Positions 5,123 to 21,646 of a stretch of DNA of 22,668 nt are shown piece after piece. Made by a program: the position numbers and the translations under genes. Under the pieces are notes generated by a model that ran no database searches, was not told the DNA's origin, and worked only from the letters and a program-made list of their open reading frames with translations. Origin of the DNA: a virus; IMG/VR virus record IMGVR_UViG_3300037508_001813, positions 1 through 22,668 of that record; one strand, written 5' to 3'. Numbering within the stretch: position 1 is the first letter of the stretch; each line of letters begins with the position of its first letter.

Positions 5123-5173
5123 AGTTTTGCCCGCCACTGAGAAAACAGCCAGACCCGGCCGGTATGAACCTTC

Positions 5174-5356
5174 ATGCCAGCCCAATCTTCACGCCCCGCC
5201 TCCAAGAAGCCCCCAGAACGGTCCTCAGCAGCCGTCGTGGGCGCCATCCTTGCCCTAGCCGTCATCCGGATGCATGACCGCCAGGATCGACTTGATAACC
5301 TGACCGAACAGAGCGTTAGTACGGGGTGTCCTGACCACCAAGGAGAACCCCAGTGA
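5174..5356 (+). CDS. Small ORF coupled to the DUF2924 gene
   Basis: 60 residues, ATG 5174, ending in QGEPQ with its stop overlapping the GTG start of the DUF2924 gene as GTGA. The reading frame is G/C-biased in third positions, and the coupling to a real gene favours a true product. There is no clear Shine-Dalgarno and I recognise no family. Content is a basic Ser/Pro N terminus, then an Ala/Val-rich helix and RMHDRQDRLDNL. It may be the first gene of the recombinase operon. Confidence 0.45.
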   Translation: MPAQSSRPASKKPPERSSAAVVGAILALAVIRMHDRQDRLDNLTEQSVSTGCPDHQGEPQ

Positions 5357-5799
5357 CCGAAACCGTTGTGGCCCGAGTGGCCGCCCTCAAGACCATCACC
5401 ACCGCCGAGCTCAAGCAGATGTGGCGGGACCTCTTCAACCAGGAGCCGCCCCCGTTCAACAGGCGATTCCTCGAAACCCGCCTGGCTTACCGGATTCAGG
5501 AATTGGCCTACGGCGGCCTCAAGCGCGAAACCGCCAAGCGTCTTGCACAACTCGGTGAGCAACTCGATGGCGGAAAACAAGATGTCCGGCGCCGTCGCCT
5601 GGATAACCGACCAATCGCCGGCACTCGCCTGATCCGGGAATGGCAAGGCACATCCTGTGAGGTGTTGGTCTGCGTTGACCACTTCGCCTACAACGGCCGG
5701 CCATACAAGTCGCTGTCCAGCATTGCCCGCGCCATCACCGGCACCAACCGCAACGGCTGGGCTTTCTTCGGCCTCGGCTCGGCAAGGAGCGCAGCATGA
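5353..5799 (+). CDS. DUF2924 domain protein of a serine-recombinase module
   Basis: 148 residues from GTG 5353, with AAGGAG 8-10 bases upstream. The family pattern is clear: LKQMWRDLFNQEPPPFNRRFLETRLAYRIQELAYGGL in residues 20-60 and GTRLIREWQGTSCEVLVCVDHFAYNGRPYKSLSSIARAITGTNRNGWAFFGL in the C-terminal half. The latter resembles the DNA-binding HTH-like 'YRSLSAIARAITGTHWNGPRFFGL' seen in these proteins. DUF2924 proteins are almost always found directly upstream of a large serine recombinase in phages and genomic islands, and are thought to assist or regulate it. Its stop overlaps the recombinase start (ATGA). Confidence 0.92.
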   Translation: MTETVVARVAALKTITTAELKQMWRDLFNQEPPPFNRRFLETRLAYRIQELAYGGLKRETAKRLAQLGEQLDGGKQDVRRRRLDNRPIAGTRLIREWQGTSCEVLVCVDHFAYNGRPYKSLSSIARAITGTNRNGWAFFGLGSARSAA

Positions 5800-7142
5800 C
5801 GGATGAGCGTCGCCTGATCTGCGCCACCTACACGCGCAAGTCCACCGAAGAAGGGCTTGATCAAAACTTCAACTCGCTGGACGCCCAGCGAGACGCCTGC
5901 GAAAACTTCATTGCCAGCCAGAAGTCCGAAGGCTGGATGATGGCCCGCGAACGCTACGACGACGGTGGCTTTTCTGGCGGCAATATGCAGCGACCTGGAC
6001 TTCAGAAGCTGCTGGATGATGTCCGCAATGGCATGGTCGACATCATCGTGGTCTACAAGATCGACCGGCTGTCGCGCTCGCTTGCCGACTTCGCCAAACT
6101 GGTCGAACTCTTTGACGAGCACAAGGTCACCTTCGTGTCGGTGACGCAGGCGTTCAACACGACGACCTCGATGGGGCGGCTAACGCTGAACATCCTGCTG
6201 TCCTTCGCCCAATTCGAGCGCGAACTCGCCGGCGAGCGGGTACGCGACAAGATCGCCGCCTCACGCCAGCGCGGTATCTGGATGGGCGGCATGCCCCCGT
6301 TTGGCTATGACGTCAAAGACCGCAAGCTGATCCCAAATCCTGCCGAAACGCAGATCGTCCGGGAAATGTTCCAGCGCTTCGCCGCAACGCCTTCAATGGC
6401 AACCCTTGTGAGAGACCTGCGTGCAAGAGGTGTCACATCAAAGTCCTGGACCACCTCAAAAGGGATCGAGCGCAGCGGGAAGTTGATCACCAAAGGGTAT
6501 GTCTACAAGGTATTCAAGAACACGGTCTACATCGGGATGGCCGCATACAAGGGGAAGCAATTCCCCGGCGAACATGAACCGATCATCGAGCAAGAACTCT
6601 GGGATACGGTCCAGGAAAACCTTAAGGCTGGCGACAAGCACGTGAAGGGCGGATCCGAGTCTCGCGACACAAAAGCCCCAACGCTGCTTCGTGGGCTGCT
6701 GTTTTCACCTGAGGGGCGTGCGTTCACGCCAGGCTGGACCAGCAAGGGTCCCAAACGGTACCTGTATTACATCAACACGGATGCGATCAAGCTCGGCAAG
6801 GATGCCTGCGAGGTCCGCCGCATACCAGCGGGTGAAATCGAAGGGGTGGTAGTGCAACAAATACGCGGGGCCCTACGCTCGCCAGAAATCCTGTCTCAAG
6901 CCGTGCATGAAGTGTCAATTGCCCGTCCGGACATCAGCGAAACAGACGCCATCAAGCACCTGCAATCGATCGACCAGGTTTGGGACCACCTCTTCCCGGC
7001 AGAGCAGGTGCGCATCGCGCATGCATTGATTGAGAGGATTACCGTTCGCAAAAACGGCATCAGCATCACTTGGAAGACCAAAGGCATGCCCAGGTTCCTG
7101 CGTGACTCGATCATGCAGCAGCCCTACAAGGAGGCCGCATGA
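5796..7142 (+). CDS. Large serine recombinase (resolvase/invertase N-terminal plus recombinase domain)
   Basis: 448 residues. The N-terminal catalytic domain (about 1-150) contains YTRKSTEEG with the nucleophile S16, then DDGGFSGGNMQRPGLQKLL, VYKIDRLSRSLADF and NILLSFAQFERELAGERVRDK, all hallmark serine-recombinase motifs. The central recombinase domain (about 170-270) includes PPFGYD and GYVYKVFKNTVYIGMAAYKGKQFPGEHEPII. The usual zinc-ribbon cysteines are absent: the equivalent stretch LLRGLLFSPEGRAFTPGWTSKGPKRYLYYINTDAI lacks CxxC. That seems normal for the DUF2924-associated subfamily. The enzyme cuts and rejoins att sites through a phosphoserine link. Start ATG overlaps the previous stop and the stop overlaps the next ATG. 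It is the only site-specific recombinase in the window and is plus strand within a minus-strand operon, so it probably moved this or a nested element. Confidence 0.95.
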   Translation: MTDERRLICATYTRKSTEEGLDQNFNSLDAQRDACENFIASQKSEGWMMARERYDDGGFSGGNMQRPGLQKLLDDVRNGMVDIIVVYKIDRLSRSLADFAKLVELFDEHKVTFVSVTQAFNTTTSMGRLTLNILLSFAQFERELAGERVRDKIAASRQRGIWMGGMPPFGYDVKDRKLIPNPAETQIVREMFQRFAATPSMATLVRDLRARGVTSKSWTTSKGIERSGKLITKGYVYKVFKNTVYIGMAAYKGKQFPGEHEPIIEQELWDTVQENLKAGDKHVKGGSESRDTKAPTLLRGLLFSPEGRAFTPGWTSKGPKRYLYYINTDAIKLGKDACEVRRIPAGEIEGVVVQQIRGALRSPEILSQAVHEVSIARPDISETDAIKHLQSIDQVWDHLFPAEQVRIAHALIERITVRKNGISITWKTKGMPRFLRDSIMQQPYKEAA

Positions 7143-7573
7143 CACCCTCACTACAAATGCCGGAAACAACGCACATCCCAATGACCTTCCGTCCACGTGG
7201 CGGAAAAACAGTGATCGTCATGCCTGATGGATCACGAGGGGTCGTACGCCGGGAGGCAACGATCGATAACACGATGATCAAGGTGATCGCCAGGGGCGTC
7301 CGGTGGCAGCGACTGATCTATGACGGCACGTATACATCGATCGAGGACTTGGCTGCAGCGGAGAAGATCAACCCGTCCTACATCAGCCGAATCTTGAGGC
7401 TGGCGTTTCTGTCACCGGTCGTAGTGCAGGCGATCCTTGATGGGTCGCATCCTGCCTGGCTGACGATGAGGGATCTGCTGGAGCCATTTCCGATGGACTG
7501 GCGACAGCAAGAGCAAAAGTTCCTGGCTCAGTTTCGGCCCGAGCCCGCCGTGGCCAGATCGAGTGCAGCCTGA
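7139..7573 (+). CDS. HTH protein, third gene of the DUF2924-recombinase module
   Basis: 144 residues starting at ATG 7139 (ATGA overlap with the recombinase). Residues 60-105 (GTYTSIEDLAAAEKINPSYISRILRLAFLSPVVVQAILDG) read as a ParB/KorB-like helix-turn-helix in which a motif of the type SIEDLAAAEKINPSYISRIL is the recognition unit. Similar small HTH proteins regularly follow the DUF2924-serine recombinase pair. Likely role: transcription factor or accessory directionality factor (inferred). The last 46 bases of the gene overlap, convergently, the 3' end of the macro-domain gene on the other strand. Confidence 0.8.
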   Translation: MTPSLQMPETTHIPMTFRPRGGKTVIVMPDGSRGVVRREATIDNTMIKVIARGVRWQRLIYDGTYTSIEDLAAAEKINPSYISRILRLAFLSPVVVQAILDGSHPAWLTMRDLLEPFPMDWRQQEQKFLAQFRPEPAVARSSAA

Positions 7574-8055
7574 AACACCGCCTGCATCTGGGTATCACCA
7601 ACGCAGATGCGCACCAGAGTGATGTCTGGAAACTCGGGGGCTCGGCTAAGCAACGCCTTCAGAATGATCTCAGCGGCTAGTTCGGGCGGAAATTTGAAGA
7701 CGCCCGTACCGACAGCGGGCATCGCCATCGACTTGATTCCTGCATCCTTTGCAACCCTAAGCACTTGGGCGATTGCAAGGTCAAGGTACTTCTCCGGGTG
7801 ATCGTCATTGATATAACTGGCTGCCCTGGCATGAATGACGTACGGGTTTGGAAGCTGGAAGCCCGGGGTGACAACAGCTTCGCCGAGTGCGATAGGCGAG
7901 TAGCGGCGGCAGTACTGCTCCAGTTCCGGCCCCGCCGCTGTGTGAATGGCACCAGCGACACCTGAACCAAACCGCAGGTTCGCATTTGCCGAGTTCACCA
8001 GCGCGTCCACATCCGGTTGACGGACGATGTTACCGACTACGATCTCAACCCGCAC
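7528..8055 (-). CDS. Macro domain protein (ADP-ribose binding/hydrolase-like)
   Basis: 175 residues from GTG 8055, with GAGGAAAG upstream; the start overlaps the stop of the 194-aa gene. The macro fold is clear: VEIVVGNIVRQPDVDALVNSANANLRFGSGVAGAIHTAAG (residues 3-42), then VIHARAASYINDD and the ADP-ribose phosphate loop AMPAVGTGVFKFPPELAAEII. MacroD enzymes hydrolyse ADP-ribosyl bonds or O-acetyl-ADP-ribose. Anomaly: in the canonical GGGVDGAIH the catalytic-type Asp is replaced by Ala (A34 in GSGVAGAIH), so this may be a binder or a hydrolase with a different mechanism. It is the last gene of a four-gene cassette. Confidence 0.9.
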   Translation of the reverse strand: MRVEIVVGNIVRQPDVDALVNSANANLRFGSGVAGAIHTAAGPELEQYCRRYSPIALGEAVVTPGFQLPNPYVIHARAASYINDDHPEKYLDLAIAQVLRVAKDAGIKSMAMPAVGTGVFKFPPELAAEIILKALLSRAPEFPDITLVRICVGDTQMQAVFQAALDLATAGSGRN

Positions 8056-8629
8056 GTTTCTTTCCTCGCCGCTTAGGCTTTTGCCACATCGAAAGAATCA
8101 CCTGATCGGAAATCTCCCCCATCCGCGGGGTTACCCAGTTGTACCCGCCATCACCAACTGCGTCATAAAACTCTGCTGGGGTCCGCCATAGCCCCCACCA
8201 TTCACAAACCGGCCCACCTTGTCCGTGAACCTCGATAAGGCACCCCACAAACGCAATAGACCCGTCACTGCCGATTAGTCGATAAGCATGCAACGACGCA
8301 AGCAAGTATGTGTCGTCGCCGGCTTGCGCGTAGTTGATCCGCTGTCGGGCCCAACTCAACCGATCTGCATCTTGAATCTCAACTTCCTCTGGGATATCGA
8401 GGTTGTATCGAGCCTCTGCATCGGAAAATTCAAGTTGGGCGATGTAGCCGAGCTTCAAAGAATTTTGCTCACCGAGATCGGCAATCAAAAAGTCCCAGCC
8501 GTCGATCTCCAGCCACTCGCAGATCCGAGTGAGTCCATCCGGTTCTTCCACCCCAGCGGCGAAGTCCCTCAGTACAGCGTCCGCAACAGGTTGGAGGTCA
8601 GGAGGCAAACATGTTTCAGCGTTCATCAT
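8045..8629 (-). CDS. Hypothetical protein preceding the macro-domain gene
   Basis: 194 residues, ATG 8629 (a second ATG directly follows at 8626). The Shine-Dalgarno GAGGGGG overlaps the previous gene's stop. I recognise no family. Seen: an acidic helical N-terminal region with ICEWLEIDGWDFLIADLGEQNSL. The centre (YTLASLHAYRLIGSDGSIAFVGCLIEVHGQGGPVCEWWGLWRTPAEFYDAVGDGGYNWVTPRMGEI, approximate) is rich in Trp and Gly, like a small mixed alpha/beta domain. The C terminus is very basic (KPKRRGKKRAG). The stop overlaps the macro gene by 11 bases, so the products are probably made together. Function unknown. Confidence 0.7.
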   Translation of the reverse strand: MMNAETCLPPDLQPVADAVLRDFAAGVEEPDGLTRICEWLEIDGWDFLIADLGEQNSLKLGYIAQLEFSDAEARYNLDIPEEVEIQDADRLSWARQRINYAQAGDDTYLLASLHAYRLIGSDGSIAFVGCLIEVHGQGGPVCEWWGLWRTPAEFYDAVGDGGYNWVTPRMGEISDQVILSMWQKPKRRGKKRAG

Positions 8630-8637
8630 TGGCCCCC

Positions 8638-10368
8638 TCAGGGCTTACGGCCGAACAACTTGGACAAAAACCCTCCACCGCTCGATGCACTAGGCTTCGG
8701 GCTTAGGTCGCGCAGGGGCTTGTCTGGAAGTTGGCGCATACGGCTGTCGGGAATGAACTGCTCGAGCAAATCCGCCCGCGGCTTCAACCCCCACTTGCGT
8801 AGGACATCAGAGAAGAGGCGCGGAGCAGATTCAGCCGCTTCAATGGCGTAGAGATCCGGCGCAAGGATTTCCGCATAGTCATCAAGAGACCACTCGCGCT
8901 CAATAGTGATCGCCTGCTGGGCTTTGTGGCAGGGGAAGTTTCGTTTGCCAGCCGAAACACGGCCAACAATGTCGTGCTCCAAGACAAGTATCAGAGCCGA
9001 AGCACAGGAGCCGAAATTATGTTGGTCATCATCGTTCGGACTGCTAACAAGTTCCTTGGCCCAGCGTAGCCAGTACTGAATGGCTCGATGTTGAGGGAAC
9101 TGCGTGTGCACTCGAGCCGCCTCCCGCACTTCGTCAGCATTCAGCTGGGGACGCAACTCCTCCAGGAACGAGAGCACCTCCGCATCACCCATTGCAACGA
9201 GCGCGCCGAAAACAGCGGCTCGATTGGCAAGGGTAGATCGAGAAAACAAGTTGCGGAGCTCGCCGCATGCATAAAGCTCGCCATTGACGTAGTCAGAGGA
9301 AGATACGAAGTCGATTGCCGCTTTTGTTGTGATCGGCACGTCGTCATCGAGGACCAGGAACGGTAAGAAGACGACAGGCAAAACCTTGCCAGCCTCTACT
9401 AGCCCAACCATTTCACCTTCAAGAAGCAGACGGGTATCACTGTCCAGGCCCTCGGCGACAGCGTGCTTGTACACCGCTGAGATCTTGGCGATGTAAGAAG
9501 TGTCGCCCTCGACGCCGTAGCAAAAGAAAAGCACTCGCAGAAGGTCAACTAGCTGCTGCTCTGAAAATTGCTTCCACTCGTCCGAAGCCAGAATCTTGTC
9601 AACATCTTCGATCGATTCAAACTTCAGCCGCTGAGGTTTCTTGACCTGAGGCTCATTTTCTTTTTCCTCGGAGAACTCCGGAAGCCAGACGGCAGGAAAA
9701 ATCTTCTCGAAGAAAAATCGTTTGAACTCTTCGGAACTCAGAGCAGTGTCTTTAATGTGTCCAGAAATTCCAGTTTTTTCGATCGATCCAGCCCAGGCAT
9801 AGAACAGAGCCTGCAGTTCTGGTTTCACATGGACTTCGGATGTAACGACATCAGCCAAATAGGCGGCGGCGGACTCTGGATCATCAGCCTCATCACCGTC
9901 GCCACCTCCAGCCATTGCCTCAGAGACCCGGCTCCACGGATCGCCAAGGTGGCGCTTTACGCTTGCTGCTACTCGTACAACGTCATCCTCAAAGCGTTCA
10001 AAGATCTGATGGACAACTTCACGCCTCGACTCTTCTTGGATTTGATTACTTACCAAAACCAATGTTGGACAACTTCCGTAGTCCAATGCGATGAGAGGCT
10101 CAAAGTCTTGCTGAGGAATCCAGGTGTCGCCAACGGTAAATCGCCCGACTTGCTCAACTGTTTGGCTAAATGGATTGAGCATGACCTTCACCAATGGAAG
10201 GGGCGCATTTAAAGTCGACTTACCGACGCTAGCTACAAAAGTCAGTGTGGGGCCAAAAGGATTGACGATTACCAGCGCATAAAAAACATCCAACTCGGCT
10301 CCGTCCAGGTCTTCCAGCGAGGACGTGATCGGCTCGGCGTACATTTGTACAGAGCACGGGGTACTCAT
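8638..10368 (-). CDS. Large uncharacterised 576-aa protein of the macro-domain cassette
   Basis: 576 residues, ATG 10368 in an ATGA overlap with the 94-aa gene, with GGAGGTGG upstream. I do not recognise a family. Residues 1-120 look like an alpha/beta domain with hydrophobic strands (ELDVFYALVIVNPFGPTLTFVASVGKSTLNAPLPLVKVML). An acidic Gly/Asp-rich linker with a GGGDGDEADDPESAAAYL stretch lies near residue 155-175. Residues 250-440 are a mainly helical HEAT-like region (ELLRVLFFCYG, NRAAVFGALVAMGDAEVLSFLEELRP). The C terminus ends in a basic amphipathic GGGFLSKLFGRKP tail, a type often used for protein or membrane docking. No nuclease, ATPase or protease motif is obvious. Possible scaffold of an accessory (perhaps defence) system: inference only. 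Confidence 0.75.
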   Translation of the reverse strand: MSTPCSVQMYAEPITSSLEDLDGAELDVFYALVIVNPFGPTLTFVASVGKSTLNAPLPLVKVMLNPFSQTVEQVGRFTVGDTWIPQQDFEPLIALDYGSCPTLVLVSNQIQEESRREVVHQIFERFEDDVVRVAASVKRHLGDPWSRVSEAMAGGGDGDEADDPESAAAYLADVVTSEVHVKPELQALFYAWAGSIEKTGISGHIKDTALSSEEFKRFFFEKIFPAVWLPEFSEEKENEPQVKKPQRLKFESIEDVDKILASDEWKQFSEQQLVDLLRVLFFCYGVEGDTSYIAKISAVYKHAVAEGLDSDTRLLLEGEMVGLVEAGKVLPVVFLPFLVLDDDVPITTKAAIDFVSSSDYVNGELYACGELRNLFSRSTLANRAAVFGALVAMGDAEVLSFLEELRPQLNADEVREAARVHTQFPQHRAIQYWLRWAKELVSSPNDDDQHNFGSCASALILVLEHDIVGRVSAGKRNFPCHKAQQAITIEREWSLDDYAEILAPDLYAIEAAESAPRLFSDVLRKWGLKPRADLLEQFIPDSRMRQLPDKPLRDLSPKPSASSGGGFLSKLFGRKP

Positions 10369-10649
10369 TTGTCCACCTCCGATTTGGTTATTGTTTCTGA
10401 CTCCAGAGCGTTGACTTCATCCAATCGTATGACTTCGACCCTCAGGCCTTGCTTTTCAGGCAACTGCCTATAGCGCTTCCATGCGCCGGCCCGGTAGGGC
10501 TTTGCTTCATCATAATCACTTTTGGTTAAAGCCGACCCTCCGTAGCGCCCCTGAAGGTAATGGCGCAGCGATCCATCTTCGTAGTGGACACGCACACAAG
10601 CGGTCACTGAGCTTTTCCACTTTTTATCGATGAACAGTATTGTCTTCAT
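10365..10649 (-). CDS. Small unknown protein after the SNF2 helicase
   Basis: 94 residues from ATG 10649; a GTG two codons upstream (10655) would overlap the Shine-Dalgarno AAGAGG, so the ATG is preferred. The protein begins KTILFIDKKWKSS and has VTACVRVHYEDGSLRHYLQGRYGGSALTKSDYDEAKPYRAGAWKRYRQLPE, a beta-rich, basic, Tyr-rich stretch. I recognise no family. It begins just after the SNF2 stop, whose TAA almost touches the Shine-Dalgarno, and ends overlapping the 576-aa gene start (ATGA). It therefore links the helicase gene to the macro-domain cassette. Confidence 0.7.
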   Translation of the reverse strand: MKTILFIDKKWKSSVTACVRVHYEDGSLRHYLQGRYGGSALTKSDYDEAKPYRAGAWKRYRQLPEKQGLRVEVIRLDEVNALESETITKSEVDK

Positions 10650-10658
10650 GTTCACCTC

Positions 10659-12284
10659 TTAATTGGCCAGCACCGTTTTTCGCACGTCGCGCACATGCTT
10701 GCATTCCCCGCGGTACTCAAACCCTGGGCAGGTGCACTGCAGATGCCCGCTTCGACCGAAGGAGACTATGTATGACTTCTTTGGGTCCTTAGAGCTTGGG
10801 AACTCCCACGAGCCAGTCTCCATCAGAGGCGCGTCCTGGGGCAGCGCGGCCACCATCTCGCCGATGATGTCCAGGCGCGCCCCTTCCTGACCCACCGCAC
10901 GAGCGGCCTTGGACTCTTGCATTAGAGCGGGGCCGAGGCGGGTAAGCTCTTCCTGGAGGTCCTTAAGGATTGAAGCGTCAGGTAGCTCATCCGATTCCAC
11001 GGCCTGCACGAGTTTGAGCTTAGCCTCAAGGAGCCGGGCGATATAACGGTCCAGCGTGCCGTTCGCTAGCAGGTACTCGACGGTGACCTGCTTGTCCTGG
11101 CCAATCCGGTAGCACCGATCCTCGGCCTGAAGGTGATTGGCCGGAACCCAATCGAGGTCCTGAAAAATCACATGGGTTGCTGCAGTGAGATTCAGGCCGA
11201 CACCCCCTGCAATCAGGTTGCAAAGCGCCACTGTGACATTGGGATCCTTTTGAAAGGCATCCATCGCTTTCATGCGCTGCTTGGCGCTGTCTGCACCGGT
11301 GATCGTGACGGCTTGATCGCCCCACGTCTTCTTGTGCCGCGTGATGCCCTCGGTGTACGAGGTAAAGACGATCACCTTTTGACCGCTGGCCACAACGTCC
11401 TTGACGCGCTCAGCGCATGCGGCGTGCTTGGCTTTATGGAGTGCCAGCCGCAGCTTTGTGATCCGAGCCAGGAACTCGGTATCGTTGGGGCGGCTCGCAT
11501 CTGAACCCAGAAACCAGTTCAGGAATCCCTCATTGGCATTCCATGCGGCGTCGCCGGTTATCTGCAACGGCACCCAGGTACGGATTTTTGGTGGAAGGTC
11601 CAGGACCTCATCCTTCTTTCGCCGCAACATCACCTCTTTGAGCAGGAGGTTGAGTTCGCTAATGTTCGATGCACCGTCCGTTACCCATCCATAGTTGTTG
11701 CGATAGGCACCACAGTACTGACGGGCAAAGGAGATGAAGCTGCGGGCAGCCGGGTGGCCAACCGCTCGCAGCAGGTTGAACAAGTCCCGCGGCCGGTTGG
11801 GCATCGGTGTGCCGGTGAGCAGAAAGACCAGGCGAGGACCCGTCACGCCGGCGCGTTTGTCGTCTGATACACCGAGGATCTTCAGCGCCTGGGAGGATCG
11901 CTGGCTCGCGTTCTTGATGAAGTGCGCCTCATCCAGTGCGACGCCTGTCCAGGCGACCTTACGCAACCGATCTGCGTTACGGGCCAGCAGGTCGTAGTTG
12001 ACGATCACCCATTGGGGCTGTGAGTGCTCGTAGCCGGAGACGCCCAGAACCTCGATCCGGGCATCCGGGTCAACCAGAAGGATTTCCCGTGCCCAATTCA
12101 GTTTCAGCGACGCGGGACAGATGATGAGAAACACGCCCGAAGGCGCGGACTCTTTGAGAGCGATGATGGCTTGGCGTGTCTTACCCAGACCCATGTCATC
12201 GCCAAGGATCGCGCGGCCGCGACGGGCCAAAAACTCAACTCCCGTTACCTGATGCGGATAAAGCGCATAGCTTTCAAGATTCAT
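10659..12284 (-). CDS. SNF2-family helicase/translocase with C-terminal SWIM zinc finger
   Basis: 541 residues, ATG 12284 with AAAGAGGAG upstream. Helicase motifs in order: Q-like motif YPHQVTGVEFL near residue 10, Walker A GDDMGLGKT (28-36), DEAH (118-121), LTGTP (156-160), then the RecA-2 motifs GGVGLNLTAATHVIF and the SNF2-typical AEDRCYRIGQ. The C terminus carries a SWIM motif: C517, C519, C528 and H530 (CTC...CKH). SNF2 proteins are ATP-driven dsDNA translocases that remodel protein-DNA complexes. The SWIM domain gives DNA or protein binding. This short form resembles helicases found in phage and integrative-element replication or recombination clusters. It is the third gene from the operon promoter. 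Confidence 0.93.
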   Translation of the reverse strand: MNLESYALYPHQVTGVEFLARRGRAILGDDMGLGKTRQAIIALKESAPSGVFLIICPASLKLNWAREILLVDPDARIEVLGVSGYEHSQPQWVIVNYDLLARNADRLRKVAWTGVALDEAHFIKNASQRSSQALKILGVSDDKRAGVTGPRLVFLLTGTPMPNRPRDLFNLLRAVGHPAARSFISFARQYCGAYRNNYGWVTDGASNISELNLLLKEVMLRRKKDEVLDLPPKIRTWVPLQITGDAAWNANEGFLNWFLGSDASRPNDTEFLARITKLRLALHKAKHAACAERVKDVVASGQKVIVFTSYTEGITRHKKTWGDQAVTITGADSAKQRMKAMDAFQKDPNVTVALCNLIAGGVGLNLTAATHVIFQDLDWVPANHLQAEDRCYRIGQDKQVTVEYLLANGTLDRYIARLLEAKLKLVQAVESDELPDASILKDLQEELTRLGPALMQESKAARAVGQEGARLDIIGEMVAALPQDAPLMETGSWEFPSSKDPKKSYIVSFGRSGHLQCTCPGFEYRGECKHVRDVRKTVLAN

Positions 12285-12320
12285 GACTCACTCCTCTTTA
12301 GCAGATTGGCCTATTGGCGT

Positions 12321-12349
12321 GGGGCCTGCAATTCGGATGAACTCGCCCC
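12321..12349 (-). promoter_or_regulatory. Leader hairpin A, upstream of the SNF2 gene
   Basis: A 29-nt G4-5...C4-5 hairpin on the minus-strand RNA, about 18 bases before the Shine-Dalgarno element GCTAAAGAGGAG. It is 23/29 identical to hairpin B at 12692-12720, and the fifth base pair changes from C-G to G-C between copies (a compensatory change). The shared ATCC sequence lies at the tip. Probably a translation- or stability-control element; no ligand or protein is known from sequence. Confidence 0.6.
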
Positions 12350-12367
12350 GGATGTCGAAGTTAGAAC

Positions 12368-12655
12368 TTAGCGCCTCTGAGGCTCACTGGATGAGCCTGT
12401 GGACTCTATGAATTGGTTGATCGCGGATCCCAGCGAAACGAGCTGCGCCCGCTCAATGCAGCATCGAGCCTTAACCCGCTTCTCTTGCGGGTTCTTGGCG
12501 GTCAGGAGTTGGGTCTTGATGACGAGCTCGGTCAGCCAAGGCTGGGCAGGTATCGGCTTGATGATGAGCGTTTCGACGTAGGTGTCGGACGCAGACAGGG
12601 TGCACTCGACCTCAGTCAACGGCTCGGTCGTGGCAAGGGTTTCAGCGATAGACAT
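12368..12655 (-). CDS. Small unknown protein between DUF3293 and SNF2 genes
   Basis: 95 residues from ATG 12655, chosen because AAAGAGGAG lies upstream; the frame runs open to 12739, but that extension crosses leader hairpin B. Protein: SIAETLATTEPLTEVECTLSASDTYVETLIIKPIPAQPWLTELVIKTQLLTAKNPQEKRVKARCCIERAQLVSLGSAINQFI, i.e. about four beta strands, a basic turn and a C-terminal helix, ending in SSSEPQRR. I recognise no family. It lies in a phage-type early operon between DUF3293 and SNF2, so a small accessory (anti-host or DNA-binding) role is possible. Confidence 0.7.
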   Translation of the reverse strand: MSIAETLATTEPLTEVECTLSASDTYVETLIIKPIPAQPWLTELVIKTQLLTAKNPQEKRVKARCCIERAQLVSLGSAINQFIESTGSSSEPQRR

Positions 12656-12691
12656 GTTGGATCTCCTCTTTAGCCGCTTTGACGGTGTGTC

Positions 12692-12720
12692 GGGGGCGGC
12701 AATTTGGATCAAATCCCCCC
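12692..12720 (-). promoter_or_regulatory. Leader hairpin B, upstream of the 95-aa gene
   Basis: Second copy of the 29-nt element of the SNF2 leader. Its five-base G/C-rich arms flank an inner AAATT/GATTT-type stem with ATCC near the loop, and GCTAAAGAGGAG follows 17 bases on. Copy A has the same layout with 18 bases. The repeat of hairpin plus Shine-Dalgarno spacing implies duplication of a regulatory leader. Confidence 0.6.
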
Positions 12721-12750
12721 AGCCCTTGAGGTGGGCCACCCCGAAAATCG

Positions 12751-13182
12751 TCAGCGCAACAGGATCAGTTGCGGGACTGCATCAGGTCCCACCCAAACGA
12801 TGGCGTCTTGGTCAAATTGAATTCCAATAGCTTTAGCAGGCTCCAGGGCCAGACCCAACGCGAAGTAGCTCTTCTCCGCTGGCCATTCGGTGCCTTCTTC
12901 GCTGCCGGAGCCTTCAATGGTCTGCAGCCTCAGCTCCTGAAGCTTGCCGGCAAGTTCGGCATGCCCGAGCTCGTTGGCTTCATCGGACTGGATGGCCCCG
13001 CGCGGGTTGTAGGCGGTCAGGAAGGCGCCGCAAGCAACGCCGCTGGCAGCAAACAAGGCAGCAATGCGCTCCGAACGTTTGCCAATGTTCAAGACGATGT
13101 CTTGATCGGTGTGACCGAGTCGGTAGTCCGTGGCCAGGTAGGCGCGGACTTTGTCGGGATGGATCTGCGTCGTTTCAGACAT
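12751..13182 (-). CDS. DUF3293 domain protein, first gene of the operon
   Basis: 143 residues, ATG 13182 with GGAGGG upstream (inside a hairpin). Family signature as I know it: YLATDYRL at the start, then IGKRSERIAALFAASGVACGAFLTAYNPRG (an 'xAF(I/L)TAxNPR' motif), then ELAGKLQEL, then GTEWPAEKSYFALGLALEPAKAIGIQFDQDAIVWVG near the end, matching DUF3293. The function of the family is not known. The in-frame open stretch to 13269 overlaps the structured leader, so I reject the longer start. As the promoter-proximal gene of the minus-strand operon it is the direct target of the leader attenuator. Confidence 0.85.
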   Translation of the reverse strand: MSETTQIHPDKVRAYLATDYRLGHTDQDIVLNIGKRSERIAALFAASGVACGAFLTAYNPRGAIQSDEANELGHAELAGKLQELRLQTIEGSGSEEGTEWPAEKSYFALGLALEPAKAIGIQFDQDAIVWVGPDAVPQLILLR

Positions 13183-13213
13183 AAAAAAGCCCTCCAGAGA
13201 GTCTATGGAGGGC
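13183..13213 (-). terminator. Intrinsic terminator/SD-sequestering hairpin at the DUF3293 start
   Basis: The stem GCCCTCCA / TGGAGGGC is 8 bp with a 9-nt loop. Six T residues (13183-13188) follow and abut the ATG. The Shine-Dalgarno GGAGGG is the 3' arm of the stem. This is the layout of an attenuator: terminate or hide the ribosome site unless an upstream structure changes. Confidence 0.75.
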
Positions 13214-13317
13214 CGACGCATCTCCCGGTTGGTTGCTCCGGCTGGAGCCGCATCCGCTTTCGCGTCCACCTTGCCCGGGGGCAGGTTGGTAAGGCCGTCG
13301 GGCCTTGTCTTGATGCA
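13183..13317 (-). promoter_or_regulatory. Structured 5' leader of the phage-like operon (riboswitch/attenuator-like)
   Basis: A leader of about 135 nt between the predicted start site and the DUF3293 ATG. Visible elements in RNA order: hairpin AAGGCC-CGAC-GGCCTT; a stem ACCTGCC/GGCAAGGT with one bulged A; GCGAAAGC (a GNRA-type loop); hairpin GCTCC-AGCC-GGAGC; a possible enclosing GACGC/GCGTC pair; and the final terminator hairpin. The motif ACCAACC occurs twice, before the second stem and after the GCTCC hairpin. Class not recognised. Regulation by premature termination and Shine-Dalgarno masking is inferred. Confidence 0.6.
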
Positions 13318-13323
13318 GGCTTA

Positions 13324-13351
13324 ACTGTAACCGAATCGTTCTGCCTGTCAA
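13324..13351 (-). promoter_or_regulatory. Sigma-70 promoter of the minus-strand operon
   Basis: On the minus strand, -35 TTGACA (13346-13351) is separated by 16 bases from -10 TACAGT (13324-13329). The expected start is about 13317. It feeds the structured leader and the DUF3293-SNF2 genes, and faces away from the HTH-hsd operon. Confidence 0.65.
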
Positions 13352-13469: not shown

Positions 13470-13673
13470 ATGCCATCCAGCACAGCTGAAAACGCCATCA
13501 TGACCATCGGGGAAGTCGCCGACTACCTCAAGGTCACCGAGCGAACGATCTACAGGCTAGCTGGAGCTAAGCAGATACCAGCCTTCAAGGTCGGGGGGAG
13601 CTGGCGGTTTTCAAAAGCAGACATCGACCGTTGGATTCGGGAGCAGTCATCAACTGCCGACCTCAAAGATTAA
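13470..13673 (+). CDS. Small HTH (HTH_17/excisionase-like) DNA-binding protein upstream of hsdM
   Basis: 67 residues if started at ATG 13470; 13500 (MTIGEV) and 13434 are alternatives without a clear Shine-Dalgarno to choose. The core [46 protein letters not shown] is the HTH_17/BldC-excisionase winged fold, complete with the recognition helix (ERTIYRLAG) and the KVGGSWRF wing. Such proteins act as directionality factors or small repressors. Its stop is 14 bases before the hsdM ATG, so it is probably cotranscribed and may act as a controller of the restriction-modification operon. The nearby inverted repeats would be the binding sites. Confidence 0.85.
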
Positions 13674-13687
13674 TCAGGAACATCAAC

Positions 13688-15234
13688 ATGACTGGCATTC
13701 AACAACGCGCAGAACTGCAACGTCGGATTTGGCAAATCGCGAATGACGTTCGCGGGGCAGTAGATGGATGGGACTTCAAACAGTATGTATTGGGTGCCCT
13801 GTTTTATCGATTCATCAGCGAAAACTTTGCGGCCTACATCGAAGGCGGTGACGATAGTCTTGAGTACGCCAAATTAAGCGATAGCTTCATCACCCCAGAG
13901 ATCAAGGATGACGCCATCAAGACCAAGGGCTACTTCATCTATCCAAGCCAGCTGTTTTCCAATGTGGCCGCCAGCGCCAATACCAATGACAGCCTGAACA
14001 CCGACCTGGCCAAAATCTTCTCGGCCATTGAATCCTCAGCCATGGGCTACCCATCAGAGCGCGACATCCGAGGGCTGTTTGCTGACTTTGACACCACGAG
14101 CAACCGCCTGGGCAACACCGTTAAGGACAAAAACGACCGCTTAGGCAAAGTGCTCAAAGGCGTAGGAGAGCTGGACTTCGGTGACTTCGATGACAGCCAC
14201 ATCGACCTGTTCGGTGATGCCTATGAATTTCTGATATCCAACTACGCGGCAAATGCTGGCAAATCTGGCGGCGAGTACTTCACCCCCCAGCATGTGTCCA
14301 AGCTGATTGCACAGCTGGCCATGCACAAGCAAACCAGTGTCAACAAGATCTACGACCCGGCCTGCGGTTCGGGCTCACTGCTATTGCAGGCTAAAAAACA
14401 CTTCGATGACCATCTCATCGAAGACGGCTTTTACGGTCAAGAACTCAACCACACCACGTATAACCTGGCGCGGATGAACATGTTCCTTCACAACGTGAAC
14501 TACGACAAGTTCAACATCCAGCTGGGCGACACGCTGATCGAGCCTCACTTTGGCGATGACAAACCGTTCGATGCCATCGTCTCCAACCCGCCTTATTCGG
14601 TTAAATGGGTGGGCAGTGATGACCCCACGCTCATCAACGACGACCGCTTTGCCCCGGCGGGGGTGCTGGCGCCGAAGTCCAAGGCTGACTTTGCATTTGT
14701 GCTGCACGCTCTGAGTTACCTCTCCAGCAAAGGCCGTGCTGCGATCGTCTGCTTCCCCGGCATCTTTTACCGCGGTGGTGCTGAGCAGAGAATTCGCAAG
14801 TATTTGGTGGATAACAACTATGTCGAAACCGTGATATCGCTGGCGCCGAACCTGTTCTATGGCACCACCATTGCCGTCACGATTCTGGTGCTATCCAAAC
14901 ACAAGCTAGATACCACCACCCAGTTCATCGATGCCAGCGGCCTGTTTAAGAAAGAAACCAACAACAATATCCTGCTGGACGAGCACATCAAAGAGATCAT
15001 GGCTGTTTTCGACAGCAAAGCCAATGTCGATCATTTCGCACAGTCAGTATCTTTCGAAAAGGTCGCAGCCAACGACTACAACTTGTCAGTCAGCAGCTAC
15101 GTCGAGGCCAAGGACAACCGCGAGGCCGTGGACATCAAGGCACTCAACGCGAAGATCTCAAGTATTGTGGCGCGACAAGCAGTGTTGCGAACTCAGATCG
15201 ATGCCATCGTTGCTGAATTGCAAGGAGACGAGGC

Positions 15235-15238
<4 letters not shown>
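13688..15238 (+). CDS. hsdM: Type I restriction-modification methyltransferase subunit HsdM
   Basis: 516 residues from ATG 13688 with AGGAA upstream; the open frame back to 13631 overlaps the HTH gene. An HsdM N-terminal domain ([37 protein letters not shown]) is followed by the N6-adenine methyltransferase core: SAM-binding motif [11 protein letters not shown] (223-232) and catalytic motif IV NPPY (300-303). GEYFTPQ precedes motif I as in the EcoR124/type IC group. HsdM with HsdS methylates adenine in a bipartite target, and with HsdR forms the restriction complex. The stop overlaps the hsdS start (ATGA). Confidence 0.96.
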
Positions 15239-16532
<1,294 letters not shown>

Positions 16533-16536
<4 letters not shown>

Positions 16537-19500
16537 GCGATTACAAAACAATTGCCGAGTCAAAGAAATTCATTGTTCTCGACCAATACACCCAAGAATG
16601 GAAGGTCGCGGAAAGTTATCAGAGCGAAAGCGATCTGGAACGGGAGTTGATTGCCGACTTGCGCAATCAGGGATACGAATACCTGCCAAGTCTGAACGAA
16701 CCTGATGCAATGCTTGCCAACGTCCGCGTTCAACTGCAATCGCTCAATAACGTGCAGTTTTCCAACGGCGAGTGGATGCGCTTTGTCGAGACCTATCTGG
16801 ACAAGCCCAGTGATGGCATTGTCGAAAAAACCCGCAAGATTCACGATGACTACGTGCACGACTTCGTCTTTGACGATGGTCGCATCCAGAACATTCGCCT
16901 GCTGGACAAGAAGAACATCGCCCGCAACAAGGTGCAGGTGATCAAGCAGTTTGAGCAGACCGGCACGCACGCCAACCGCTATGACGTCACGATTCTGGTC
17001 AATGGCCTGCCGTTGGTTCAGGTTGAGTTGAAAAAACGTGGCGTGGCCATCCGCGAAGCCTTCAATCAAGTGCATCGCTACAGCAAGGAGAGCTTCAACA
17101 GCGAGCACTCCTTGTTCAAGTACCTGCAGGTCTTTGTGATTTCCAACGGCACCGACAGCCGTTACTTTGCCAACACCACGCAGCGCAACAAGAACAGCTT
17201 CGACTTCACCATGAACTGGGCGAAGGCGGACAACAGTCTGATCAAGGACCTCAAGGACTTCACTGCCACGTTCTTCCAGAAGAACACTCTGCTCAATGTG
17301 CTGCTGCACTACTCGGTGTTTGATGTGAGCAACACGCTGCTGGTGATGCGTCCGTATCAGATCGCAGCCACGGAGCGCATTCTCTGGAAGATCAACAGCG
17401 CATTTCAAGCCAAGTGCTGGAGTGACCTGGAAGGCGGTGGCTTCATCTGGCACACCACGGGCTCAGGCAAGACCCTGACCAGTTTCAAGGCAGCGCGACT
17501 GGCCACGGAACTCGACTTTATCGATAAGGTGTTCTTCGTAGTGGACCGCAAGGATCTCGACTACCAGACCATGAAGGAATACCAGCGCTTTTCACCGGAC
17601 AGTGTGAACGGTTCTGACAGCACTTTAGGGCTTAAGCGCAACCTGGCGAAGGATGACAACAAGATCGTCGTCACCACCATTCAGAAACTGAACAACCTGA
17701 TGAAGAGTGAGGGCGACCTGCCAATCTACGGCAAGCAGGTCGTGTTTATCTTTGATGAGTGCCACCGTAGCCAGTTCGGCGAAGCGCAGAAGAACCTCAA
17801 GAGGAAATTCAAGAAGTTTTACCAGTTCGGTTTCACCGGAACCCCCATCTTCCCGGAAAACGCCTTGGGCGCAGAAACGACGGCCAGCGTGTTTGGCAGA
17901 GAGCTGCATTCGTATGTCATCACCGATGCGATTCGTGATGAGAAGGTGCTCAAGTTCAAGGTTGATTACAACGATGTGCGTCCGCAGTTCAAGGCCATTG
18001 AGTCCGAACTGGATGAGAAAAAACTCAGCGCAGCTGAGAACAAACAAGCTTTGCTACACCCCGATCGCATCCGTGAGATCACCCTGTACATTCTGAACAA
18101 CTTCAGACAGAAGACCCACCGCCTGCATCCGGGCAACAAGGGCTTCAACGCTATGTTTGCAGTAAGCAGCGTGGATGCTGCGAAGCTGTATTACGAATCC
18201 TTCAGAGAACTGCAAAAGGGCGCTGACAAATCACTGCGTGTAGCGACCATCTTTTCATTCGCAGCCAATGAGGAGCAGGATGCCATCGGTGACATCCAGG
18301 ACGAGAGCCTGGAAGTCTCAGCCATGAACAGCAGTGCCAAGGAGTTCTTGAGTGCAGCCATTGCCGACTACAACGCAATGTTTAAAACAAACTTTAGCGT
18401 TGATAGCGATGGCTTCCAAAACTACTACCGCGATCTGGCCAAGCAGGTTAAAGCCAAGGAAATCGATCTGCTGATTGTGGTCGGTATGTTCCTGACGGGC
18501 TTTGACGCGCCCACGCTCAACACCTTGTTTGTGGATAAAAACCTGCGCTATCACGGCCTGATGCAAGCCTTCTCGCGCACCAACCGCATTTTTGACGCCA
18601 CCAAGACCTTCGGCAACATTGTCACCTTCCGTGATCTGGAGCAGGCGACCATTGACGCCATCACCCTGTTTGGTGACAAAAATACGAAAAACGTGGTGCT
18701 GGAGAAAAGCTACAAGGAGTACATGGAGGGCTTCACCGATGTGGCCACTGGTGAAGCGCGGCGTGGCTTTGTGGAGGTGGTTAAGGAGCTCGAAACACGC
18801 TTCCCTGATCCTGCTGCCATTGAGACAGAGGCTGACAAGAAGGCTTTCGCCAAACTCTTCGGCGAGTATTTACGCATCGAAAACGTTTTGCAGAACTACG
18901 ACGAATTCGCCAGCTTGAGGGAGTTACGAGACGTTGACATGAGTGACCCAGCAGAGGTGGAAGCGTTCAAGTCAAAACACTATTTGACCGATGAAGACAT
19001 GACTGCAATGGCCACCATCACGTTGCCTGCTGAGCGGAAAATCCAGGATTACCGATCTACCTACAACGACGTACGCGACTGGCAGCGTCGGGAAAAAACT
19101 GCTGACGATAAGGACAGATCAACCATCGACTGGGACGACGTAGTCTTTGAGGTTGACTTGCTCAAGTCGCAGGAAATTAATTTGGACTACATCCTTGAAT
19201 TGATTTTCGACCACAACAAGAAAACCAAGAGCAAATCCGAACTGGTGGATGAAGTTCGTCGCGTCATTCGTGCAAGCCTTGGTAATCGCGCAAAAGAAAA
19301 TTTGCTGGTCGACTTTATCAACAAGACAGATCTCGACCAGATTGGCGACAAGGCTAGCGTGATTGAGGCTTTCTTTTCTTTTGCGCAAGCTGAGCAGCAA
19401 CGTGAAGCCCAAGAATTGATCAACTCCGAGAGCCTAAATGCGGATGCCGCCAAGCGGTACATCGCGGCATCACTGAAGCGTGAGTACGCCAGTGACAGTG

Positions 19501-19631
19501 GTACGGAGCTGAATGCTGTTTTGCCCAAGATGAGTCCATTGAATCCGGAATACCTGACCAAAAAGCAGAGCGTGTTTCAAAAGTTAGCGGCTTTTGTAGA
19601 AAAGTTTAAAGGGGTGGGCGGCAAGATTTGA
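16533..19631 (+). CDS. hsdR: Type I restriction endonuclease/translocase subunit HsdR
   Basis: 1032 residues; ATG overlaps the hsdS stop (ATGA). N-terminal nuclease: D151 in YDVTILVNG, then E165-L-K167 in VQVELKK and the Q179...Y183 motif, the type I PD-(D/E)XK signature. Motor: Walker A HTTGSGKT (307-314), DECH (408-411), TGTP (435-438), then [32 protein letters not shown] in the second RecA domain. The C-terminal third is helical and contacts the methyltransferase. Length and motif order are those of the EcoR124/type IC family. It cuts DNA after ATP-driven translocation when the HsdMS complex meets unmethylated sites. The ATGA junction makes its translation likely to depend on completed hsdS translation. 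Confidence 0.97.
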
Positions 19632-20341: not shown

Positions 20342-20433
20342 TGGCGGAGAGAGCGGGATTCGAACCCGCGGTACGCTTTGAAACGTACACACGCTTTCCA
20401 GGCGTGCGATTTAAACCACTCATCCACCTCTCC
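20342..20433 (-). tRNA. tRNA-Ser (anticodon GGA)
   Basis: 92 nt including encoded CCA. The 7-bp acceptor stem starts GGAGAGG (last pair G-U). D arm GGTGGATGAGTGG-like; anticodon loop CTGGAAA within the GCACGC/GCGTGT stem, giving anticodon GGA. The long serine-type variable arm (TGTACG...CGTACC) is present and the T arm is GCGGG-TTCGAAT-CCCGC. Discriminator G. Reads UCC/UCU codons. It is a common integration-site type, but the tRNA, CCA and terminator are intact here. Confidence 0.97.
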
Positions 20434-20752: not shown

Positions 20753-21646
20753 ATGAGTATACAATCTAACCCTGACTTGAAAGCCGCATCTGGCCTCGTC
20801 GCTGACTATTCACCACCCAAGGTTTGGACTTGGGATAAGGCAAACGGGGGGCGGTTTGCCAACATCAACCGTCCGATTGCTGGAGCCACCCATGAAAAGG
20901 CATTGCCCTTAGGAACTCACCCGTTACAGCTTTATTCTCTTGGAACGCCAAATGGCGTCAAAGTTACCGTCATGCTTGAAGAACTGCTGGCGCTTGGTCT
21001 TCAAGGTGCTGAATACGACGCTTGGCCGGTTCGTATTGGCGACGGCGAGCAATTCAGTACAGGTTTTGTTGAGATCAATCCCAACTCTAAAATTCCTGCC
21101 CTTGTTGATCGAAGCGGCGACAAACCCGTTACGGTGTTTGAGTCGGCCGCCATTTTGTTCTACCTTGCAGAAAAGTTTTCGGTTTTCCTGCCCACTGAGC
21201 ATCCAGCGCGCAGTGATTGCCTTTCCTGGTTGTTTTGGCAAATGGGCAGCGCGCCTTACCTAGGCGGTGGTTTTGGCCACTTTTACGCTTATGCACCGAG
21301 CAAAATGGAATATCCAATTGACCGCTTCACCATGGAGGTGAAGCGCCAGATGGATGTGTTGGATCGTCTACTCAGTGATCGTTCATTCATCGTTGGTGAG
21401 TCCTATACCATTGCAGACATGGCAATTTGGCCGTGGTACGGTCAACTAGTGCTTGGTAGACTTTATGGTGCAGCAGAGTTCCTTGACGTTGAAAGCTATA
21501 CAAACTTGCTGCGCTGGGCTCGAGACATTGGCGCTCGACCAGCCGTTCAGCGCGGAAGGCTTGTCAATAAGTTGACTGGCGACGCGGACATGCAGGTGCC
21601 CGAGCGGCACAGTGAGGCTGACTTTAACGGCAAGCGCCTCGATTGA
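20753..21646 (+). CDS. yghU: Glutathione S-transferase-family disulfide reductase YghU
   Basis: 297 residues, ATG 20753. Very close to E. coli YghU in my recollection: PPKVWTWDKANGGRFANINRPIAGATHEKALPLG at the N terminus, then HPLQLYSLGTPNGVKVTVMLEELLALG (start of the thioredoxin-like GST N domain), NPNSKIPALVDRSG...VFESAAILFYLAEKF (glutathione-binding loop, with the E-S pair), LFWQMGSAPYLGGGFGHFYAYAP and the C-terminal helical YTIADMAIWPWYG motif. YghU-type enzymes bind two glutathiones and show disulfide-bond reductase activity with little classical transferase activity. A cytosolic chromosomal housekeeping or stress gene, divergent from the tRNA. It marks the normal chromosome beyond the accessory region. 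Confidence 0.94.
   Translation: MSIQSNPDLKAASGLVADYSPPKVWTWDKANGGRFANINRPIAGATHEKALPLGTHPLQLYSLGTPNGVKVTVMLEELLALGLQGAEYDAWPVRIGDGEQFSTGFVEINPNSKIPALVDRSGDKPVTVFESAAILFYLAEKFSVFLPTEHPARSDCLSWLFWQMGSAPYLGGGFGHFYAYAPSKMEYPIDRFTMEVKRQMDVLDRLLSDRSFIVGESYTIADMAIWPWYGQLVLGRLYGAAEFLDVESYTNLLRWARDIGARPAVQRGRLVNKLTGDADMQVPERHSEADFNGKRLD

Follow-up and report, generated by a model that had tools for sequence, protein, structure and literature searches.

The leader in front of the DUF3293 gene in the window, by which we mean the whole 22,668-nt stretch of the IMG/VR virus record IMGVR_UViG_3300037508_001813, was identified as a SAM-I/IV riboswitch. It very probably acts as an OFF switch that opens a mobile operon when S-adenosylmethionine (SAM), the methyl donor, is low, with SAM being sensed again on later cistrons. 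The features concerned are as follows.

13346-13351, minus strand: -35 box TTGACA (consensus scan)
13324-13329, minus strand: -10 box TACAGT after a 16-nt spacer (consensus scan); the predicted start, near 13317, adjoins P1
13219-13321, minus strand: SAM-I/IV riboswitch aptamer, RF01725 (Rfam, 53.8 bits; cut-off 41.1)
13312-13316, minus strand: 5' strand of P1, GCAUC, pairing with GAUGC at 13250-13254
13291-13306, minus strand: P2 hairpin, in which CCGACG (13296-13301) is the candidate antiterminator partner
13274-13280, minus strand: P3 loop CCCGG, proposed to form a pseudoknot with the 3' tail (complementarity by sequence)
13224-13228, minus strand: CCGGG of the tail, with which the P3 loop is proposed to pair
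13213-13218, minus strand: anti-P2 segment CGUCGG, abutting the 5' arm of the terminator
13188-13214, minus strand: terminator hairpin, with the Shine-Dalgarno GGAGGG as its 3' arm
13183-13188, minus strand: U6 tract of the terminator (sequence)
12751-13182, minus strand: DUF3293 gene (PF11697), SAM-lyase-like fold
12662-12740, minus strand: SAM-V-like riboswitch, copy 1, placed at the next ORF's ribosome-binding site
12368-12655, minus strand: 95-aa ORF, no family match
12290-12365, minus strand: SAM-V-like riboswitch, copy 2, placed at the SNF2 gene's ribosome-binding site
10659-12284, minus strand: SNF2-family helicase (gene annotation)
5138-13316, no strand assigned: 8.2 kb unit common to the window and locus L002 at 95%, with unrelated flanks

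The consensus promoter scan returned a single site on the minus strand (13351-13324; 10/12 matches, 0.2 expected), giving a leader that runs for about 135 nt between the predicted start and the ATG at 13182. The folding energy of this leader (MFE -58.7 kcal/mol, z = -2.19, an equally good fold in 4/200 shuffles) was, taken alone, modest evidence of structure. The original prediction, made from the letters of the window, had described a structured leader, and the promoter, hairpins, GAAA loop, two ACCAACC motifs and terminator on which it drew were all located in the sequence: the GAAA loop (CGC-GAAA-GCG) caps the hairpin preceding the 3' strand of P1, the first ACCAACC forms the J2/3-P3 core, and the second belongs to the 3' tail, ahead of CCGGG. 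It had also stated that the leader matched no known riboswitch class, a point corrected by the Rfam covariance search, in which RF01725 was the sole match reported and was covered over its full model (positions 1-99), with E = 2.8e-8 for a 361-base local stretch and 1.7e-6 for the whole window.

The last hairpin of the leader consists of the stem GGCCCUCC-11 nt-GGAGGGCU, with 7 Watson-Crick pairs and one G-U, followed by U6 and the AUG; it was not found by the terminator scan because the scan takes only loops of 3-8. Its Shine-Dalgarno GGAGGG sits 7 nt ahead of the DUF3293 AUG. The earlier proposal of a regulatory leader whose last hairpin could affect both transcription and translation was supported. 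The element agrees with the SAM-I/IV class described by Weinberg and colleagues (PMC2864571) in its full-length match over the cut-off, its helices P1-P3, P5-like hairpin and SAM-core bases, and in the proposed P3-loop pseudoknot, and differs from it in standing ahead of DUF3293 on a mobile cassette, whereas the usual partner is a methionine gene, and in having a terminator arm that is also the Shine-Dalgarno. For the candidate pseudoknot, which would correspond to the described PK-2 arrangement of SAM-IV (PMC6890682), every base of the tail CCGGG but the first was invariant among 13 aligned leaders; CCCGG and CCGGG being complementary and nearly invariant, no covariation could be counted.

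A scan of genome contigs for DUF3293 provided 20 loci, in 12 of which RF01725 lay directly upstream of the gene; in the others the RNA was lost or the locus distant, with L014 retaining the terminator end only and L007 a decayed form. In the 13 aligned leaders, the pairs of P1, P2, the P5-like hairpin and the terminator were preserved despite changes, as the original prediction would have it, and 5 pairs of the RF01725 helices showed double changes. The match to SAM-I/IV together with this pairing preserved through double changes was far beyond chance. In addition, the SAM-contact regions (CAUY..GA, CAACC, AAGGUG and the AUG of the P1 3' strand), taken from the list in PMC6890682 and mapped onto SAM-I numbering via our own alignment, were matched by pattern in 39 of 40 leaders, and the fortieth (L085) retained the AUG as well. 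SAM-I/IV preceded a DUF3293 gene in 20 of these 40 leaders, a count from which L079 and L084, with short overlapping frames, were left out.

The class was sparse in Burkholderiales, being over the cut-off in 19/401 genomes of the family of G004; it occurred in 3/274 genomes of the class of G014, and in 0/20 gammaproteobacterial genomes with other DUF3293 genes, on which ground a general tie between DUF3293 and SAM-I/IV was rejected. The labels Acidobacteria, Verrucomicrobia and Akkermansiaceae, carried by the metagenome-assembled genomes (MAGs) of some loci, possibly reflect binning errors and were given no weight as an argument for spread across phyla. An annotated plasmid, pPNAP04 of Polaromonas naphthalenivorans CJ2, showed the same order of SAM-I/IV (62.9 bits), DUF3293 and SAM-V-like element (55 bits); as CJ2 is an environmental strain in culture, the arrangement is testable.

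The gap downstream of DUF3293 was conserved as well, and held the first of two RNAs resembling SAM-V. The Rfam model SAM_V (RF01826) gave 27.8 bits (E 0.0071) for copy 1 and 17.5 bits for copy 2 against a cut-off of 41, and both are therefore termed SAM-V-like rather than members. A model built from 13 SAM-V-like copies (R1) recovered copy 1 at 99.8 bits and copy 2 at 32.9 bits (E 1e-7). Over 40 matches, 94.4% of the cells were paired in the structure consisting of a 5' hairpin, P1, pseudoknot and P3, and 60 cells carried double changes compared with 16.0 after shuffling (0/500 shuffles), P1, pseudoknot and P3 all being covered; the pairing signal collapsed when the structure was slid. The pseudoknot was 98.7% paired, C-G being replaced by A-U, U-A and G-C; since only the 5' hairpin and P1 had guided the fitting of the alignment, pseudoknot and P3 give independent support for the fold. 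Among the ligand-contact bases named for SAM-V (PMC6061858), U9, U20, U47, A48 and A50 were kept in 13 aligned copies, whereas U8 and A18 varied, with G at the U8 position of copy 2 and of some others.

These RNAs share with SAM-V and SAM-II (RF01826, RF00521) the H-type pseudoknot, the P3 hairpin, the UUG...CUAAA core and the overlap with the Shine-Dalgarno, and differ in falling below the Rfam cut-offs, in mostly bearing an extra 5' hairpin, and in the subgroup with G at U8. At least one such element was present in 28 of the 40 SAM-I/IV loci. Because their pseudoknots lie on the ribosome-binding sites of the 95-aa ORF and the SNF2 gene, we propose that SAM would be read once at transcription and again at translation on the later cistrons. 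Tandem SAM riboswitches have been described for SAM-II/SAM-V and in two cases of SAM-I/IV followed by SAM-II (PMC9481103). The present arrangement resembles them in having two SAM aptamer types per transcript, transcriptional and then translational, and differs in that the switches are separated by a gene and a further cistron has a second SAM-V-like copy ahead of it, with as many as four copies within one operon at L003.

The promoter, SAM-I/IV element, DUF3293 gene and SAM-V-like element together constitute a cassette of about 0.68 kb that occurs ahead of different genes. By blastn, the segment from SAM-V-like copy 1 to the promoter (12662 to ~13340) was 74-87% conserved in many loci with unrelated flanks, and the payloads behind it included metK, small proteins without assigned function, SNF2 and MoxR/VWA genes; metK followed directly in L010, L011 and L015, where it was extra to the housekeeping copy of those genomes. 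The larger 8.2 kb unit carries a serine recombinase together with the operon, and L002, with which it is shared, is a bacterial MAG with other flanks. The identity with L002 stops exactly at 13316, the first base of P1, and the promoters of the two differ; an incoming riboswitch would thus depend on the local promoter. The two ends of the unit, searched for an att-like direct repeat, shared short matches only. Hence, while the phage-like nature of the operon claimed at the outset is in keeping with the IMG/VR virus record and with the genes for phage replication located at 1-4 kb, mobile element or genomic island is the better term for a unit that also resides in a bacterial MAG. A tRNA-Ser (20342-20433) and a glutathione S-transferase gene (20753-21646) suggest that the right end of the record is host chromosome. 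Meanwhile, proteins that remove ADP-ribose were seen in both the window operon, which has a macro-domain gene (7528-8055) with a weak DarG match, and pPNAP04, where an ADP-ribosylglycohydrolase gene (L133, 5400-6344) lies behind the cassette.

The partner gene of the switch may bear on SAM itself. An AlphaFold2 model of the DUF3293 protein (pLDDT 85.5), compared with the PDB by Foldseek, ranked solved phage SAM lyases 1, 4, 5 and 6, with weak scores (E 0.1-0.6, TM 0.31-0.39), and also matched PII-like structures; in BFVD, a phage DUF3293 protein came first, followed by annotated phage SAM hydrolases (probability 1.00, E 0.004-0.008). For the model of a distant homologue from L018 (pLDDT 88.2), T3 SAMase (7ock_K) ranked third, with 3.5 A over 92 columns and, at 0.75, the highest probability among the 50 matches listed. 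Profile comparison by hhalign between DUF3293 and eight phage lyases gave a score of 35.7 (E 3.3e-5), while 200 column-shuffled profiles reached at most 19.1 and the reversed profile 11.8; the narrow DUF3293 alignment (A3) against T3 SAMase alone gave a probability of only 0.26%. The relation thus emerges only when both sides are represented by diverse alignments, and rests on profiles and folds, from which a distant relationship between DUF3293 and phage SAM lyases is, in all likelihood, to be assumed. The lyase family PF23780 (S-AdoMet_lyase) was the second family for 11/18 proteins (best E 0.01), no other additional family being matched by most members; on the window protein it scored 12.6 bits, below its cut-off of 28, and DUF3293 is accordingly a relative of PF23780, not a member.

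In comparison with the phage lyases (PF23780; T3 SAMase and Svi3-3; PMC7877911), DUF3293 shares the fold and colinear motifs. In the hhalign alignment its E103 and Q125 were placed with the active-site Glu and Gln: E103, the Glu before beta-3, resembles T3 E68 and Svi3-3 E69, and Q125, contained in the motif [FY]xQ[DN][AC], is proposed as the equivalent of Svi3-3 Q104. On the other hand, the active-site aromatic (Tyr58 of Svi3-3, or Phe) is absent, its place in the alignment being taken by Gly93, and the single-protein sequence match is weak. A lyase raised at low SAM would be odd if DUF3293 cleaves SAM, and a role in SAM binding or in control of MetK seems likelier than cleavage; T3 SAMase is known to bind and inhibit MetK (PMC8406200). 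A protein-based scan of viral contigs and a tblastn search of phages returned no DUF3293 relatives, sequence comparison with the PDB gave chance-level matches only, and no paper on DUF3293 was found in the literature searched, which mostly excludes subscription journals.

From these relations, a mobile cassette carrying a member of the SAM-lyase fold group would constitute a module acting on the cellular SAM supply or reading it, and in the metK-carrying cassettes DUF3293 stands beside an accessory SAM synthetase. A serious possibility, which we rate at somewhat less than even, is that the purpose is plain SAM homeostasis, with the cassette providing an accessory SAM synthetase together with a PII-like protein that binds SAM and partners the synthetase, and having no link to phage defence. 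The metK genes of three cassettes, the divergent metK of MoxR/VWA operons that follow SAM-I/IV leaders, the PII-like structure matches and the effect of T3 SAMase on MetK all favor it, whereas the window and most other cassettes have no following metK and their payloads vary. The operons with MoxR-type AAA, VWA/metallopeptidase-like and divergent SAM synthetase genes behind SAM-I/IV (L005, L009, L070, L072, L079 and L090-L092; in L131 only the start of an AAA gene is visible) are possibly a separate SAM-regulated system.

A SAM-depletion alarm on mobile defence islands is an unlikely extension of the same module. Under such a scheme, a phage that destroys SAM by its lyase to evade DNA methylation-based defence would release the SAM OFF-switches, so that the accessory SAM synthetase or other effectors would be made, and DUF3293, a tyrosine-less lyase relative, could join in by disturbing phage lyase trimers or by acting on MetK. 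Systems of SAM-dependent DNA methylation beside the cassette, namely a type I restriction-modification system in the window, DUF499/DUF1156 in L002, an MmeI-type system in L006 and a C5 methylase in L009, are consistent with it. In the window, a divergent HTH_17 gene is followed by the complete type I set (hsdM, hsdS and hsdR) over 13470-19631.

As for the switching itself, the aptamer would form at high SAM, the terminator hairpin would fold behind it and RNA polymerase would halt in the U-tract, and in any read-through RNA the same hairpin would mask the Shine-Dalgarno of DUF3293. At low SAM, the 5' arm and loop of P2 would instead pair with the pre-terminator segment (CCGACG with CGUCGG), reaching into the 5' arm of the terminator and weakening its hairpin, whereby transcription and translation would open. 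We infer the direction, SAM being OFF, from the riboswitch class and from the compatibility of aptamer and terminator. The P2/pre-terminator pairing extended over 10-12 bp in many leaders and 14 bp in L090/L092, was replaced by AAGAGAGU/GCUCUCUU in L088, and was recognized by eye as GGGUUGACA with UGUCAACCC in the gammaproteobacterial leader L131. The flanking P2/anti-P2 pairs were 84% formed over 19 distinct rows, with 6 double changes versus 2.4 expected (18/2000 shuffles), and this pairing and its double changes give moderate support to a candidate antiterminator that excludes P2.

The version in the window is imperfect: its nine pairs are interrupted by a C-C mismatch (-15.1 kcal/mol for the duplex). 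The minimum-energy fold there contains aptamer and terminator together, at the -58.7 kcal/mol given above versus -45.7 kcal/mol for the forced antiterminator at full length, and the antiterminator was about 10 kcal/mol worse before the terminator was complete and 13-15 worse afterward. The six-pair helix CCGACG/CGUCGG forced alone was discarded as an antiterminator, the terminator in the window remaining possible beside it; the nine-pair version does compete with the terminator 5' arm and is thermodynamically worse. Aptamer and terminator being compatible and the antiterminator energetically unfavorable, antitermination would need to be kinetic and may be leaky, and these calculations point to a default-OFF, kinetically controlled switch.

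With this weak antiterminator, with the Shine-Dalgarno lying within the hairpin and with translational SAM-V-like elements on the later cistrons, the same riboswitch might act on translation, its hairpin masking the Shine-Dalgarno and its U-tract terminating little or independently of SAM. Such a reading appears improbable, given that stem and U-tract were retained in 13/13 aligned leaders, that P2/anti-P2 pairing covaries, and that in many related leaders the terminator lies well ahead of the gene, with a separate SAM-V-like element at the ribosome-binding site. Far less probable still is an aptamer variant for another ligand such as SAH or a polyamine, for which spermidine-sensing SAM-I variants offer a precedent (PMC10853860) and with which the non-methionine genes DUF3293 and SNF2 would agree. 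The core bases were kept in essentially all 40 leaders, unlike the spermidine class with its altered J1/2 and P3 internal loop (PMC10853860), and a second SAM fold within the same operons, metK as a partner gene and the relation of DUF3293 to SAM lyases likewise speak against it. The ligand switch among the three options left standing by the original prediction was upheld, while the other two, a protein-bound antiterminator (put/nut-like) and a ribosomal or attenuator leader, are extremely improbable, as only the presence of a terminator favors them, the SAM-I/IV match is full-length and no sign of a leader peptide was found.

The individual SAM-I/IV switch proposed here is ordinary, since both the class and SAM-I/IV-then-SAM-II tandems have already been described; what appears new is the repetition between cistrons, the location on a mobile cassette and the partnership with a SAM-lyase-like gene. 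A known riboswitch class is now linked to genes outside methionine metabolism, SAM sensing would be repeated over successive cistrons of one mobile operon, and a SAM-V-like group missed by Rfam is defined. DUF3293 meanwhile gains a testable biochemical hypothesis, namely that it binds SAM, cleaves it or controls MetK. Beyond the cassette, a tandem pair of SAM-I/IV elements about 100 nt apart was seen in a Gemmatimonadetes MAG (L032/L042, G015:C5:24660-24979), and small proteins with a GDLA(V/I)V...N(I/L)G motif and no assigned family recurred behind these riboswitches in L066, L067, L088 and L019.
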